DNA of 62,132 bases. Origin: an uncultured Christensenella sp. Lineage in GTDB: Bacteria > Bacillota > Clostridia > Christensenellales > UBA1750. The notes beneath the pieces were generated by a model. The model was not told the DNA's origin and did no database searches. It saw only the letters and a program-made list of their open reading frames with translations. Location of the stretch: the NCBI GenBank assembly GCA_948468595.1, contig CAOKIU010000007.1, positions 1 to 62,132 of the forward strand. The letters are read 5' to 3'. A program made the translations under genes and the position numbers. Each line of letters begins with the position of its first letter. The first letter of the stretch is position 1. Below are positions 22,642 to 52,183 of this stretch, piece after piece.

Positions 22642-23340
22642 ATGCCCAGTGACACCATCTTGGCAGTGGATGACGAGGTCCACATTCTTGAATTGATTTC
22701 GTTCAACTTGAAAGCGGCGGGATACCATGTGGTAACGGCGCTCACGGGCGAGGAAGCCCTCAAGCGCTGTGAGGTGGAGCGGCCTTCCCTTGTGTTGTTG
22801 GACATTATGCTCCCCGGTATCGACGGCCTGGAGGTCTGCCGCAGACTCAAGGGCGACCGCATGACCAGCAACATTCCCATCATCATGCTCACCGCCAGAG
22901 GGGACGAGGTGGACAAGATCCTGGGCCTGGAGCTTGGCGCGGACGACTACATCACCAAGCCCTTCTCCGTAAGAGAGCTGGCCGCGCGCGTCAAGTCCCT
23001 GCTGCGCCGGGTCGCGCCCCAGCAGGAGAGTGAGCCGCAGACCCTGCGCTCGGGCGATATTATGATCGACATTACCAATTATGAGGCGTTCAAGGGCGGC
23101 GAGAAGCTCTCGCTGACGCTCAAGGAATTTGAATTGCTCAAGGTGCTGGTGCTCAGCCGCGGCAAGGTGCTCACCCGCGACTTCCTCTTGGACCGCATCT
23201 GGGGCTATGAATACTACGGCGAGACGCGCACGGTGGACGTTCACATCCGGCATCTGCGCCAGAAGCTGGGTGAGGAGCCCTACATCGAGACCGTGAGAGG
23301 CGTGGGCTATCGCTTTGTGGATCGGGAGCAAGAGGCGTGA
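22642..23340 (+). CDS. PhoP/PhoB-type response regulator
   Basis: OmpR-family regulator, 232 residues. The receiver domain (1-120) has the acidic pair in VDDE, the phospho-accepting Asp near 53 in LVLLDIMLPG, a conserved Thr in MLTARG and Lys in ITKPFS. The winged-helix output domain (about 135-230) ends with the canonical VDVHIRHLRQKLG and TVRGVGYRF motifs. The ATG at 22642 follows TAAGGAGG. It overlaps the kinase gene by four bases. Proximity to pst-like genes and phoU points to phosphate-starvation control. Confidence 0.9.
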   Translation: MPSDTILAVDDEVHILELISFNLKAAGYHVVTALTGEEALKRCEVERPSLVLLDIMLPGIDGLEVCRRLKGDRMTSNIPIIMLTARGDEVDKILGLELGADDYITKPFSVRELAARVKSLLRRVAPQQESEPQTLRSGDIMIDITNYEAFKGGEKLSLTLKEFELLKVLVLSRGKVLTRDFLLDRIWGYEYYGETRTVDVHIRHLRQKLGEEPYIETVRGVGYRFVDREQEA

Positions 23341-25046
23341 AATCCATGCACCGGCGGATCGTAACCGCCGCCTCGCTATTCGTCATGGCGGTCGTTGCGG
23401 TCACGTCCTTCTTTTCCATGCGCATCACCATACAGGAGGAACAGGGCGCGATTCGGGAGCAATTGCTCAAGGCGGCGCGCTATGGAGCCAAGACCGCCTC
23501 TAGCCCCAAGGAGCTGGATCGGATCGCGGGCCTGATGGGCGTGCGGGTCACGCGCATGGCGGAAAACGGAGAAATTCTCCATGATACCAGCGGTCAGGTG
23601 GGGTATTACTTGGACCAGCCTGACGTTATTGCCGCGCTCTCCACCGGGACGGGGGAAGAGGTTTCCTTCGTGGGCAAGCTCGCGCAAATGCAGGTTGCGG
23701 TCTCGGTGCGCGAGGATGACGGCAACATTCTGCGCCTGACGAAGAACCAGGTGGTCTTCCGGCACGGGGATTGGGGCCTGTTCGCCGCGCTGATGATGCT
23801 TGTGCTCATCGTCTGCGTCTACCTCTCCTTTGATATGGCGGGGAAGGTCGTTCGGCCTATCAACCGGATTTCCACCGCGGCACAGGCCATTATCGACGGC
23901 AACTACAACGTGAACCTGCGCGTGGAAGGATATGCGGAGCTCAATCAACTGCTGCGCACTCTGCGGTCCATGGACGCGCGCTTGCAGGACACCGTAGAAA
24001 AACTACAGCACAAGAGCGCGGAGCTGGAGTCCATCATCGAGCACATGCTCAACGGCCTCATCGCCGTGGACGGCCAGCTGCATGTGGTGCAGATGAACAA
24101 CGCGGCCAAGCGCATGCTGGGCGTGAGCGGCAGCGTGGAGGGCAAGCACGTGCTGGAAGCCACGGGAAATGCGCGGCTGGAGGCAGGGCTTACCGAGGCC
24201 ATGGAGCATGACGAGCTCTACACGGTGGAGCTGCCCGTCCGCGCCGCACCGCGCCACCGCCTCATCCGCCTCTACATTTCGGCGCTGGAGCACGAGGATG
24301 AGAACATCGGCGCGGTCGCGCTGATGGAGGACGTCACCGAGCTGCGCAACCTCGAACAGATGCGCACGGACTTTGCCGCCAACGTCACCCACGAGCTCAA
24401 GACGCCGCTGACGTCGATACGCGGCTTTGTGGAGACGTTGCAGGCCGGCGCCATTGAGGACCCCATGATGGCCAAGCGGTTCCTGGACATCATCTCCATG
24501 GAGACCGACCGTCTTTCCCGGCTGATCAACGACGTGCTCTCCTTATCGTCCATGGAGAACGGGCGCGTGCGCGTGCCCACCGAGCGGCTGAGCCTGGGCA
24601 AGCGCGCGGGGGATGTGTGCCTGATGCTGGAAAACAGCGCCAAGCTCAAGAACATCGCCTTGACCTGCGACGAGGGCGCCGATACCTACGTTAAGGCCAA
24701 CGAGGACCACGTCAAGCAGCTGCTCATCAATTTGATCGACAACGCCATTAAATACACGCTGGAGGGCGGGTCGGTCAAGGTATGGGTGCAGCGGGATGGA
24801 TCGAATGTGGAGTTGCACGTGCGGGATACGGGCATCGGCATCGCGCAGGAGCACATTCCGCGCCTGTTTGAGCGGTTTTACCGCGTGGATAAGGGCCGCA
24901 GCCGCAACATGGGCGGCACGGGGCTGGGGCTTGCCATTGTCAAGCACATCGTCATGGACATGGGCGGGCTCATTCAAGTACAGTCGGAGCTCAACGTGGG
25001 CACGGAATTCACCGTCACCCTGCCCTATGCGGACAAACAGGATTGA
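23337..25046 (+). CDS. PhoR-type sensor histidine kinase
   Basis: Membrane kinase partner of the upstream regulator, 569 residues. Two membrane helices (about 8-28 and 147-165) bracket a roughly 115-residue extracytoplasmic domain, then HAMP (about 166-218), a PAS domain (about 230-330), HisKA with the phosphorylated His near 352 in VTHELKTPLTS, and HATPase with N box LIDNAIKY, G1 DTGIGIA and G2 GGTGLGLAIVK. The order matches PhoR of Gram-positive bacteria. The start is GTG at 23337 in a GTGA overlap with the regulator's stop codon, implying coupled translation; an ATG lies three codons later. Confidence 0.92.
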   Translation: MKSMHRRIVTAASLFVMAVVAVTSFFSMRITIQEEQGAIREQLLKAARYGAKTASSPKELDRIAGLMGVRVTRMAENGEILHDTSGQVGYYLDQPDVIAALSTGTGEEVSFVGKLAQMQVAVSVREDDGNILRLTKNQVVFRHGDWGLFAALMMLVLIVCVYLSFDMAGKVVRPINRISTAAQAIIDGNYNVNLRVEGYAELNQLLRTLRSMDARLQDTVEKLQHKSAELESIIEHMLNGLIAVDGQLHVVQMNNAAKRMLGVSGSVEGKHVLEATGNARLEAGLTEAMEHDELYTVELPVRAAPRHRLIRLYISALEHEDENIGAVALMEDVTELRNLEQMRTDFAANVTHELKTPLTSIRGFVETLQAGAIEDPMMAKRFLDIISMETDRLSRLINDVLSLSSMENGRVRVPTERLSLGKRAGDVCLMLENSAKLKNIALTCDEGADTYVKANEDHVKQLLINLIDNAIKYTLEGGSVKVWVQRDGSNVELHVRDTGIGIAQEHIPRLFERFYRVDKGRSRNMGGTGLGLAIVKHIVMDMGGLIQVQSELNVGTEFTVTLPYADKQD

Positions 25047-25062
25047 TTTTACGCCAATTTTT

Positions 25063-25093
25063 GAGCGGTTTCGCTATGCGGACCGCTCTTTTT
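25063..25093 (+). terminator. Terminator after the phoR-type kinase gene
   Basis: GAGCGGT (25063-25069) pairs with ACCGCTC (25082-25088) and five T residues follow, separating the two-component operon from the pst-like genes. Confidence 0.8.
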
Positions 25094-25233
25094 CTGTCTG
25101 TTGCGTGTTGTGGACCGATTTAGCCCACTTTTAACCTTTGCCGGGTTGCTCTCACCCCGCGCTTTCTATAAAATTGAATACGGAAGAATAAGTAGTTGTT
25201 CGGACGAAGCGGGAAATGGATTGCGGAGGGTGC

Positions 25234-26043
25234 ATGAAGAAACCTGCGGAAAATCTGATGCGCCTGGGCGCATGGATTGGCGGCGCGCTGACCGTTCTGC
25301 TGGTGGGCAGCGGGGTGGTGTTCGCCCTGGGCCTTATGCTGATGGAGGGTGCGGAGGCAGGCAGCGCGGCGAGTATGTGGCGCCTGCTGCCCAAGGGGCT
25401 GACCATGGCGGGCTTTTCGCTCTCCACCGCCCTGGCCGCGGTGGCGCTCTCCTTCCCCATGGCCTGGGCGCTGGCCGCGCTGATCTCCTATATGATGCGC
25501 CCGCGCGCCATGATGCGGATGCGCAGTGCGATCTCCGGCCTGTCCGCCATCCCGGCGGTGGTCTTTGGCTACCTGAGTCTGAACTACTTCGTGCCGGTGA
25601 TTGGGTCCCCGTGGTGGGGCGTGACGGCGACGTTAATGCTCATGAGCCTGATGCGGCAGACGCTGGAAATCATCCAGGTCAATCAGCGGCACTACCCGGC
25701 CGTGGAGGCCGCGCAGGCGATGGGAATGTATATGTATGAGACCATTTTACACGTCGTGCTGCCGCGGGCGCGGAACGGGTATTTGAGCGTGGCGCTGAAG
25801 ATGCTGGCGCGCTGTATGGCGGAAGGGGTGGCGATTCTGCTGGTGCTCTCGGCCTATGGCAGCGGCGAGGACACCTTGCCCACGGCGCTGATGAAGGCGG
25901 TGGGCGTCACCGGCGAGGTGGGCAGCACGCGGTTCATCCTGCTGCTGGCTCTGCTGCTGTTGCTGCTGGTGCTGCTGACCAACGCGGTGATCTCCGCCTG
26001 CTTGGAAGGAGGACGGCATGGAAAGAAGAAAGGCGCTCAATAG
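25234..26043 (+). CDS. pstC: PstC-like phosphate ABC transporter permease
   Basis: Inner-membrane permease half, about 269 residues and six hydrophobic segments. It carries the AIPAVVFGYLSLNYF stretch typical of PstC/PstA and the EAA loop EAAQAMGMYMYETILHVVLP near 180 that docks to the ATPase. The ATG at 25234 follows GCGGAGGG; an upstream in-frame ATG at 25216 would include the ribosome site in the coding region. The gene follows a terminator and has a TATAAA at about 25167, but no clear PhoP boxes. No pstS binding-protein gene precedes it, which is unusual. Confidence 0.85.
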   Translation: MKKPAENLMRLGAWIGGALTVLLVGSGVVFALGLMLMEGAEAGSAASMWRLLPKGLTMAGFSLSTALAAVALSFPMAWALAALISYMMRPRAMMRMRSAISGLSAIPAVVFGYLSLNYFVPVIGSPWWGVTATLMLMSLMRQTLEIIQVNQRHYPAVEAAQAMGMYMYETILHVVLPRARNGYLSVALKMLARCMAEGVAILLVLSAYGSGEDTLPTALMKAVGVTGEVGSTRFILLLALLLLLLVLLTNAVISACLEGGRHGKKKGAQ

Positions 26044-26812
26044 CGTGTTCATCGGCGCGGTGCTGCTGCTCTCGGCGCTGGCGCTGCTGACGCTGTTGAT
26101 TCCGCTGTTTCACCTTGCGGCGGACGCGCTGACGGCGCTGTTGCGCTCCTGGGGCGTGCTGCCGGGCATCGGCGCGGTGTTCCTCAAGACGTTGCAATTG
26201 GTGTTGATGGTGCTGTTGATGGTGCTGCCGGTGGCGCTGCTGATCACGCTGTGGATGTTTGAATGCGTCAAGGGCGCGACGCTGGTGCGCCTTCAGCGGT
26301 TTATGAGCGGCTTTTCCCGCATTCCGGCGGTGCTCCTGGGGCTGGTGGGCAACTGGCTGATCAGCGGCAGCGACTCAATGCATGAAAGCCTTGTGACCAT
26401 GGCGCTGCTGCTGGCGGTGATGTTCCTGCCGTTCATGGTTTCCAACATGGATACGGCCCTGCGCGCCGTGCCGGAGAAGTACCTCACGGCTGGGGAAGCG
26501 CTGAGCGGGCAGCGCATGGCGATTCTGCGCGTGGTGCTGCTGCCGCAGGCCATGCCCAGCATGGCGCGCGCGACGCTGCGCTTGGTGGAGCGCATCCTGT
26601 GCGAGGCCACAGCCCTGCTGGTGCTCATGGGCGCGGTCATGCCCAACCAGGTGTTGGCCACCGAGCTGTTCCGCCTGGCCTGGCTGGGGCGCAAGGACGC
26701 GGCGGTGCTGGCCTTTGCCCTGGCGGCGACGATGATCCTGATCCGCCTGAGGACGTCGCGCAGGTGGCGCAGCGAAGGGGAGGATAGCAATTGTCGATAC
26801 AACTGGTGGTAG
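26018..26812 (+). CDS. pstA: PstA-like phosphate ABC transporter permease
   Basis: Second permease subunit, 264 residues, overlapping pstC by 26 bases. Six hydrophobic helices are visible, with the GFSRIPAVLLGLVGNWLI segment and an EAA-type loop AGEALSGQRMAILRVVLLPQA near 160. Its basic C-terminus reaches into the pstB start. Paired with the PstC-like subunit it should form the transmembrane channel. Like its neighbours it is compact compared with Escherichia coli PstA (about 296 residues). Confidence 0.83.
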   Translation: MERRKALNSVFIGAVLLLSALALLTLLIPLFHLAADALTALLRSWGVLPGIGAVFLKTLQLVLMVLLMVLPVALLITLWMFECVKGATLVRLQRFMSGFSRIPAVLLGLVGNWLISGSDSMHESLVTMALLLAVMFLPFMVSNMDTALRAVPEKYLTAGEALSGQRMAILRVVLLPQAMPSMARATLRLVERILCEATALLVLMGAVMPNQVLATELFRLAWLGRKDAAVLAFALAATMILIRLRTSRRWRSEGEDSNCRYNWW

Positions 26813-27537
26813 AAGATCTCAATGCGTCCTTTGACGACAAGGTGGTGCTCCACGACGTGGCGGTGACCGCTGAAAAGGGGCATGTGCTCGCCCTGATGGG
26901 CAAGACGGGCTGCGGCAAGTCCACCTTTCTGCGCGTGATCAACCGCATGGCCGAACAGCGCGGGGCCGTGGTCAGCGGGCGCATCATGTTGGACAATAAC
27001 TCCATCTTCATGCAGGAGCCCAACGAGATCCGGCGCAAGGTGGGCATGGTCTTTACAGAGCCCGTGCTCTTTGCGGGCACGATCCTGCGCAACATCACCG
27101 CCGGACTGCGCTTGCAGGGGATCACCGGCAAGCAGGCGCTGGAAGAGCGCGCGGAGGAGACGCTCCGGCGCATGGAGATCTACGGCGAATTCCGCGACCT
27201 GCTCTATACCGACGCGGCGCTGCTGACCCGCGCCCAGGCGCAGCTCATCTGCATCGCCCGCGCGCTGGCGCTCCGGCCCGGTCTGCTGCTGTTGGACGAG
27301 CCCACGCGCCTGCTGGACGCGATGACCAGCAGCAAGATCGAGGACATTCTCTTTAACCTCAGAGAGGATTGCACCATGGTCATGGCCGTCCACTCCCCCC
27401 AGATGGCGGGGCGCATCGCCGAGGAGACGGCGATGATGGAAGATGGCACGATTCTGGAGTGGGGGCGCACCAGCGACCTGTTTTACCACCCTAAGCACCG
27501 GCATACCGAGCAGTTCATTAGCTCGAAATTCGCTTAA
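26791..27537 (+). CDS. pstB: PstB-like ABC ATPase with degenerate signature and Q-loop
   Basis: Nucleotide-binding subunit, 248 residues. Walker A GKTGCGKS (37-44), Walker B LLLLDE (165-170) and the switch His201 are intact, and the C-terminal FYHPKHRHTEQFISSKFA closely follows PstB. However, the LSGGQ signature is LTRAQ at 145-149, the Q-loop Gln is Thr89 (GMVFTEP) and the usual SALDP D-loop reads RLLDA. These positions normally complete the ATP site across the dimer, so hydrolysis may be slow or altered. The start is TTG at 26791 after GGGGAGG, overlapping pstA. The assignment is firm from context; transport competence is uncertain. Confidence 0.82.
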   Translation: MSIQLVVEDLNASFDDKVVLHDVAVTAEKGHVLALMGKTGCGKSTFLRVINRMAEQRGAVVSGRIMLDNNSIFMQEPNEIRRKVGMVFTEPVLFAGTILRNITAGLRLQGITGKQALEERAEETLRRMEIYGEFRDLLYTDAALLTRAQAQLICIARALALRPGLLLLDEPTRLLDAMTSSKIEDILFNLREDCTMVMAVHSPQMAGRIAEETAMMEDGTILEWGRTSDLFYHPKHRHTEQFISSKFA

Positions 27538-28347: not shown

Positions 28348-28394
28348 ATAAACTATTAGATGGTGAATTAGTCGTGCGTAAAGGAGAGCAAGAG

Positions 28395-28868
28395 ATGAAC
28401 GACGGCCAGATGGAATTTGAGATGGAGTTTGCGCGGGTCATACGCATGTATTACTGCCGGATGCAGGCGCAGCTGGCGGAGGTGGGCCTGTTCCGCGGCC
28501 AGCCGCCCATTTTGGGGTTGCTGCACAAGCACGATGGCATGAGCCAAAAGGAGATGGCGCGCGCGCTCAACCTTTCGCCCGCGACCATGACCGTGACCCT
28601 AAAGCGCATGGAAAAGGCGGGCCTGATCGTGCGCGAAATGGACGAGCACGACCAGCGCATCCTGCGCGTGCATCTTTCGGCGCAGGGCAAGCAGATGTGC
28701 CAAAAGGGCGAAAAGCAGGTCAACCAAGTGACCTCGGAGCTGTTGGAAGGCTTTACCGAGGAGGAGCAGGAGCGCCTGAAGGAATACCTGCGCCGCATCG
28801 CCCACAACATGGAGCGCGTCGTGCGCGAGGCGGATATGGAAATGACGGATGGGGAAGCGCGCGGTTAA
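28395..28868 (+). CDS. MarR-family transcriptional regulator
   Basis: About 157 residues with the MarR winged-helix fold: an N-terminal dimerisation helix, then LGLLHKHDGMSQKEMARALNLSPATMTVTLKRMEKAGLI (helix-turn-helix, about 43-81) and the wing REMDEHDQRILRVHLSAQG with its conserved D-x-R core. The ATG at 28395 is chosen because AAAGGAG lies directly upstream; a GTG at 28374 is less likely. No transporter or enzyme target lies next to it: tilS follows with its own promoter. The ligand and regulon are unknown. Confidence 0.88.
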   Translation: MNDGQMEFEMEFARVIRMYYCRMQAQLAEVGLFRGQPPILGLLHKHDGMSQKEMARALNLSPATMTVTLKRMEKAGLIVREMDEHDQRILRVHLSAQGKQMCQKGEKQVNQVTSELLEGFTEEEQERLKEYLRRIAHNMERVVREADMEMTDGEARG

Positions 28869-51060: not shown

Positions 51061-51136
51061 GAAGGGTTCGCCCCCTTTTTATTTTGTCCGGTATGCGCGC
51101 CGCTATTTTAACACACGGTTAACCGCGCATCAACCC

Positions 51137-51193: not shown

Positions 51194-52183
51194 ATGAAGA
51201 AGATACGCATCGGCATCGTGGGGTACGGCAACCTGGGCAAGGGCGTGGAGCTGGCGCTCCGGCAGAATCCCGATATGGAACTGGTCTGCGTTCTGACCCG
51301 GCGCGACCCCGCGCGCCTGAACTTGGCGACTCCCGGCGTCCGGGTGCTGCGCATGGAGGACGCGCCCGCCATGACCCAGGAGGTCGACGTGATGATCCTA
51401 TGCGGCGGCAGCGCCACGGACCTGCCCGAGCAGGGACCGCAGATGGCGCGGCTGTTCAACACCGTCGATTCCTTCGATACCCACGCCAAGATTCCGCAGT
51501 ACTTTGCCGCCGTGGACGCGGCCGCGCGGGAGGCAGGGCGCCTGAGCGTCATTTCGGTGGGCTGGGACCCGGGCCTGTTTTCGCTCTACCGGCTCTTGGG
51601 CGGGGCGGTTCTGCCCGAGGGGCGGGACTACACCTTCTGGGGCCGCGGCGTATCGCAGGGGCATAGCGACGCCATCCGCCGCATCGACGGCGTCAAGGAC
51701 GCCAAGCAGTACACCGTGCCCGTGCCGGAAGCGGTGGAAGCGGTACGCGCGGGCGAAATGCCCGAGCTGACCACGCGGCAGAAGCACACGCGCGAGTGCT
51801 TTGTGGTGCTGAAGGAGGGCGCGGACGCGGCGCGCGTGGAGCGCGAGATCAAGGAGATGCCCAATTACTTCGCCGATTACGATACCACTGTGCACTTTGT
51901 CTCCCAGGAGGAGCTGGACCGCGACCATGCGGGTCTGCCCCACGGCGGATTCGTCATCCGCAGCGGCAGAACGGGCGAGGGCGGACGCAACGGCCAGGTG
52001 ATGGAGTGCGCGCTCAAGCTCGATTCCAACCCGGAGTTCACCTCCAGCGTGCTGGTGGCCTGCGCCAGAGCCGTGTACAAGCTCGCCCTGGAGAACGCGA
52101 CCGGCGCCAGGACCATTTTGGACATCCCGCCCGTCTATCTTTCCCCGCTGACGGGCGCGCAGCTGCGCGAAACGCTGCTGTAG
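51194..52183 (+). CDS. ddh: meso-Diaminopimelate D-dehydrogenase
   Basis: NADPH-dependent enzyme that converts tetrahydrodipicolinate, ammonia and NADPH directly to meso-DAP, bypassing the acylated branches of lysine synthesis. The 329 residues begin with the Rossmann motif IRIGIVGYGNLGKGVELAL, and contain CGGSATDLPEQGP, VDSFDTHAKIP, the SVGWDPGLFSLYRLLG block and FWGRGVSQGHSDAIRRIDGV, all characteristic of Ddh. The ATG at 51194 follows GGGGAGG. It supplies DAP for the MurE encoded at 4834 and for the lysine pathway. Confidence 0.95.
   Translation: MKKIRIGIVGYGNLGKGVELALRQNPDMELVCVLTRRDPARLNLATPGVRVLRMEDAPAMTQEVDVMILCGGSATDLPEQGPQMARLFNTVDSFDTHAKIPQYFAAVDAAAREAGRLSVISVGWDPGLFSLYRLLGGAVLPEGRDYTFWGRGVSQGHSDAIRRIDGVKDAKQYTVPVPEAVEAVRAGEMPELTTRQKHTRECFVVLKEGADAARVEREIKEMPNYFADYDTTVHFVSQEELDRDHAGLPHGGFVIRSGRTGEGGRNGQVMECALKLDSNPEFTSSVLVACARAVYKLALENATGARTILDIPPVYLSPLTGAQLRETLL

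Follow-up and report, generated by a model that had tools for sequence, protein, structure and literature searches.

Within the window, by which we mean the whole stretch of 62,132 nucleotides that was analyzed, the genes for a two-component system are followed on the forward strand by genes for a Pst-like complex and PhoU. We mark this complex and its parts with an asterisk (pst*, PstC*, PstA*, and PstB*), and the features of the locus are the following.

22642..23340, + strand: response regulator of the OmpR family (PhoB/YycF-like), from profile scores and identity across genera
23337..25046, + strand: histidine kinase of the PnpS/PhoR type (NF046044 PnpS, 407 bits, above the cut-off of 400)
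25063..25088, + strand: hairpin with T run resembling an intrinsic terminator, 3' of the kinase gene, from a consensus scan in which chance matches are common
25120..25136, + strand: Pho-box-like operator TTAGCC-N5-TTAACC, upstream of pstC*
25146..25174, + strand: putative core promoter read from the sequence (-35 TTGCTC, 17 nt, -10 TAAAAT)
25234..26043, + strand: PstC*, a PstC-like permease (TIGR02138, 44 bits, cut-off 196)
26018..26812, + strand: PstA*, a PstA-like permease (TIGR00974, 63 bits, cut-off 193)
26791..27537, + strand: PstB*, open reading frame for a PstB-type ATPase of 248 aa
27558..28214, + strand: PhoU (TIGR02135, 133 bits, above the cut-off of 130.25; two PF01895 stretches)

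The kinase contains HAMP, PAS, HisKA, and HATPase domains, and its H, N, G1, F, and G2 boxes are intact. The response regulator scores 250 bits with TIGR02154 PhoB (cut-off 296) and 249 bits with NF040534 YycF/WalR (cut-off 340) and is, therefore, below both cut-offs and equally close to both families. The terminator-like hairpin is a candidate for splitting the kinase gene and the pst* operon into two transcription units.

The PstB* open reading frame begins with a TTG start codon and has GGAGG 5' of this start. Alignment with both E. coli PstB and the genome's own canonical PstB revealed that LTRAQ stands at the position of the LSGGQ signature, that Thr89 occupies the Q-loop position that is normally Gln, and that the D-loop stretch is RLLD instead of SALD with the D-loop Asp itself retained. 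Walker A (GKTGCGKST), Walker B (LLLLDEP), and the VHS that carries the switch His are retained, and the C-terminus resembles that of PstB; the alignment thus confirms how the earlier note had read these motifs. The top family match is TIGR00972 PstB with a score of 237.8 bits, which is below the curated equivalog cut-off of 343.2 bits. An AlphaFold model of PstB* has a mean pLDDT of 91.6, and the nearest fold to this model is E. coli PstB in the solved PstSCAB structures (TM 0.89–0.92). Phylogenetic analysis placed PstB* and the PstBs on one side of the outgroup ABC ATPases, as expected for descent from PstB; the PstB* sequences form a single clade (support 100/100), the sister of which among canonical PstBs is unplaced in a tree with long branches. 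A minus-strand ORF of 403 aa overlapping pstB* was set aside in favor of pstB* because the plus strand yields full-length PstB homology.

Among the 11 genomes that we sampled from the family, the same pstB* gene was identified in nine species from three genera (the window's genus, referred to as g1, and two others, g2 and g3). None of the nine orthologs retains LSGGQ, the variants at this position being LTRAQ, LTRGQ, LTRSQ, LPMPQ, LTTAQ, and LPLPA, and none retains the Q-loop Gln, which is replaced by Thr in g1 and by Pro or Ser in g2 and g3. The D-loop stretch begins with Arg in all nine. The Walker Lys, the Walker B Asp, and the catalytic Glu (equivalent to E179 of E. coli PstB) are invariant throughout, and a Gln equivalent to E. 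coli Q160 is likewise present in 9/9. The switch His is kept in all five sequences from the window's genus and is Asn in all four copies from g2 and g3, and the A-loop aromatic residue is not conserved among PstB* sequences. As a control, LSGGQQQRLCIA (the LSGGQ signature) is kept in 28 of 28 canonical PstBs from the same order, 7 of which are from the same family. The earlier note had suggested looking for canonical motifs at this locus in close relatives as a sign of sequencing error or decay; nine related species carry the lesions instead, and sequencing or assembly error is ruled out as their source by their presence in nine separately assembled genomes.

Uncorrected pN/pS values for PstB* between the window and genomes G006 and G009 are 0.20 and 0.25, and those for canonical PstB in the same pairs are 0.20 and 0.18; for PstB*, the comparison with G007, which is more distant and for which synonymous sites approach saturation, gives 0.37. 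PhoU of the pst* locus has a pN/pS of about 0.2, like canonical PstB, and the pst* reading frames are open in nine species. PstB* is thus under purifying selection with a constraint about that of the working PstB in the same genomes, and pN/pS together with the open frames rules out that pst* is a pseudogene.

The lesions are not confined to the ATPase. Neither permease reaches the equivalog level of its family. The closest structural match of PstC* is E. coli PstC. PstC* could also start at 25216, and its relatives begin at the equivalent of MKK. The equivalent of PstA R170 is absent from all nine PstA* sequences, the equivalent of PstA R220 is kept in seven of nine, and that of PstC R237 is kept in 9/9; the Glu at E. 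coli PstC position 241 and the cytoplasmic EAA-type coupling loops are also kept. Compared with 22 canonical PstC and 32 canonical PstA sequences, loops that are predicted from the usual topology to be extracellular are shortened in all nine species: PstA* lacks residues at E. coli positions 62–69 and around 235–240 (two such loops), and PstC* lacks those at positions 45–55, 165–171, and around 259–261. PstA* also evolves faster than canonical PstA, with pN/pS values of 0.52 and 0.73 versus 0.29 and 0.31 in the G006 and G009 pairs. No pstS is present in the pst* cluster, and the sole TIGR02136 match in the genome sits in a canonical operon on another contig (C2). Judged from these sequences, the whole pst* complex is degenerate rather than PstB* alone.

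The exact consensus of the operator, TTWNCC-N5-TTAACC, is found upstream of pstC* in seven of the nine genomes including those in which the regulator is unlinked, and TTGY follows the operator after 9 nt in eight of nine. Such recurrence of a box about 100 bp before pstC* across genomes is not due to chance. Genome-wide, the pattern occurs 0–5 times per genome, about as often as a reversed control and with no enrichment; no regulon can, therefore, be called from it, and the putative link between the regulator and the operator is one of position and conservation.

In the window's genus the gene order is nrdR, response regulator, kinase, pstC*, pstA*, pstB*, phoU, marR, tilS, and hpt. In g2 and g3, nrdR, the regulator gene, and the kinase gene are together, and pst*-phoU is at another site. 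The MarR-family gene (28374–28868), which lies directly 3' of phoU, is conserved in all five genomes of the window's genus. A search of the genome for a second, canonical pstSCAB, as the earlier note had proposed, identified a complete pstS-C-A-B-phoU cluster with its own response regulator and kinase on contig C2. Canonical PstB is present in most genomes that have pst*; in G007 (L040), the genome of which is 93% complete, pst* is present but canonical PstB and PstS were not found. A Na/Pi cotransporter is encoded in G007. In the outgroup G011, the orthologous regulator and kinase are followed at this position by a canonical pstSCAB-phoU. The simplest history would be that a pst operon degenerated in place and that uptake passed to another pst locus.

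An alternative is that the cluster is a decaying relic, an old pst operon beside a regulator and kinase that lost its function once a second pst had been gained and is drifting towards loss. The fast evolution of PstA* and PstC* relative to canonical PstA and the loss of pstS are what such drift would produce. However, frames that are open in nine species, canonical-like constraint on PstB* and PhoU, invariant Walker Lys, Asp, and Glu, and an operator and promoter that are conserved even at relocated operons largely refute this alternative, which we regard as highly improbable.

The variant appears to be narrowly distributed. In the 297 genomes of the order, no further sequence resembling PstA* scored above 103 bits, and samples of 391 genomes from the class and 398 from the phylum contained no match beyond an E value of 1e-29 except in the window's own genome. 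Across the roughly 1,000 genomes sampled, pst* seems to be confined to a subset of one family.

Slow turnover remains within the reach of ABC proteins with degenerate sites, and the complex might still transport phosphate or another solute, either through a slow, unusual cycle or through pairing of PstB* with canonical PstB so that one consensus site is formed. The catalytic Glu of all nine PstB* sequences, the retained permease residues and coupling loops, and the availability of canonical PstB in most pst* genomes are consistent with this possibility. In E. coli, mutants of PstA R220 and PstC R237/E240 are blocked in transport while signaling remains (PMC5775613), and the retention of the R220 and R237 equivalents, which E. 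coli needs for transport, would speak against a loss of transport. On the other hand, the cluster has no binding protein and its outer loops are trimmed, the signature and Q-loop are lost together with the switch His in two genera, and G007 appears to have no canonical partner. On balance, continued transport seems unlikely.

We consider it probable, without great confidence, that pstC*A*B*-phoU is instead a Pst transporter without transport that has been retained as a signaling module. PstC* and PstA* would anchor PstB* at the membrane, and PstB*, with Walker A and Walker B intact, probably still binds ATP; since each of the two sites in a homodimer has an altered signature, Q-loop, and D-loop, it would not be expected to form a normal ATP-sandwich dimer. 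The absence of PstS and the trimmed extracellular loops suggest that external phosphate does not drive the module. PstC*A*B* would present PhoU to the adjacent PnpS/PhoR-type kinase. A complex that has no signature at both sites and no PstS should stay open, and we, therefore, favor a transport-incompetent scaffold or brake. In E. coli, the pstB Q160K mutant, which is predicted to be inward-open, signals phosphate sufficiency, and the E179Q mutant, which is predicted to be closed, signals starvation, neither of them transporting phosphate (PMC5775613). By analogy with the mutant in the signature region, the most likely output of the pst* complex would be a kinase held in the phosphatase state; as the Q160 equivalent is retained in PstB*, the analogy holds for the region rather than for the residue itself. 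Because the operon bears a Pho-box-like operator, its likely role would be that of an inducible brake that feeds back on the response regulator, with uptake being carried out by the separate canonical pstSCAB. The suggestion in the earlier note of a sensor rather than a pump fits a locus in which PhoU and the kinase score above their cut-offs and PstC, PstA, and PstS are also degenerate or lost; its further suggestion that phosphate status is the signal fares less well since, without PstS, pst* has no route known from E. coli by which to read external phosphate.

The PstSCAB-PhoU-PhoR/PhoB system of E. coli (PDB 9k3s, 9k3x, and 9k3y) shares with the pst* locus the gene order pstC-A-B-phoU beside a PhoB/PhoR-type pair, and PstB* and PstC* are structurally closest to its PstB and PstC. 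It differs in that the pst* complex lacks PstS, has a changed signature, Q-loop, and D-loop in PstB*, has lost R170 and outer loops in PstA*, and is encoded in a genome with a separate canonical system. The E. coli Q160K and E179Q complexes resemble it as nontransporting Pst complexes with a signal set by conformation, but they are laboratory point mutants (PMC5775613), whereas the several pst* lesions arose naturally and have become fixed in nine species with the equivalents of Q160 and E179 intact. S. pneumoniae also has two pst-phoU loci with divided roles (Pst1/PhoU1 and Pst2/PhoU2), a PnpRS-type pair upstream of one of them, and a 6-5-6 Pho box about 90 bp before the first gene of pst1; unlike pst*, which lacks PstS and key ATPase motifs, both systems have been described as transporting phosphate, and pstS1 is part of the pst1 operon (PMC4913102). 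The tandem PstB1 and PstB2 of Enterococcus faecalis are likewise divergent PstB paralogs with different roles; however, Walker A, LSGGQ, and the H-loop are intact in both, and they share one pst operon (PMC12096839). In the open-licence papers that we searched, we found no account of a Pst locus that lacks both PstS and the signature.

It has long been asked whether PhoU and PhoR learn of phosphate from the transport flux of the Pst complex or from its conformation, and this question has so far been approached with laboratory mutants. In the gut Clostridia lineage studied here, nature has apparently split signaling from transport: nine species have fixed a Pst complex without PstS and without the signature, and most of them encode a working Pst complex as well. 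The two Pst complexes of one genome offer a direct comparison of whether signaling needs hydrolysis or transport.

The response regulator of the pst* locus is 99–100% identical within the genus and 95% identical in two other genera, with synonymous sites well diverged and pN/pS values of 0.01–0.06. It is 100% identical over 232 aa to that of another species, with which the adjacent kinase shares 81% identity. It may be a core regulator. The regulator and pst* are found in the same nine genomes, though unlinked in g2 and g3, and in the two family genomes without pst* a close regulator is absent, the best matches being about 51% identical; this co-occurrence is within one clade and is, therefore, not independent evidence. 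A near-invariant core regulator is also what would be expected if PstB* were an energy or nucleotide sensor, the ATP occupancy of its Walker site being relayed by PhoU to the kinase, with the two-component system then tracking cell energy and not external phosphate. The nucleotide-holding elements are the only invariant catalytic motifs of PstB*, and the extracellular input parts are lost, as such a sensor would allow; the variable A-loop aromatic is at odds with it, and we consider a sensor of this type quite unlikely. A broader form of the same idea, in which the whole ABC importer has become a nucleotide-gated signaling unit, PstB* reads ATP without hydrolysis and sets the core regulator via PhoU, and the targets may include cell-wall precursor synthesis (from a triple site before ddh) and not phosphate scavenging, is decidedly unlikely.

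Boxes similar to the pst* operator were also observed at other genes. A TTAACC-N5-(A/T)TAACC box lies immediately 5' of the gene for an NptA-type Na/Pi cotransporter in both g2 genomes (G001/L172 and G002/L173), and no such box was seen upstream of its g1 homologs. A related but different box, TTAAC(C/G)-N5-TTTACA followed by CTGAAA, is found in the canonical pstS promoters of three g1 genomes (L116, L117, and L118). One-mismatch matches to the operator number four in the window, where 0.44 are expected. At 51108–51135, a triple tandem half-site, TTAACA-N5-TTAACC-N5-TCAACC, lies upstream of a TATAAT -10 element and of a gene for diaminopimelate dehydrogenase (51194–52183; PF16654); the ddh gene was not found in the stretches examined from two relatives. 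The half-site and period of this triple site are those of the pst* operator.
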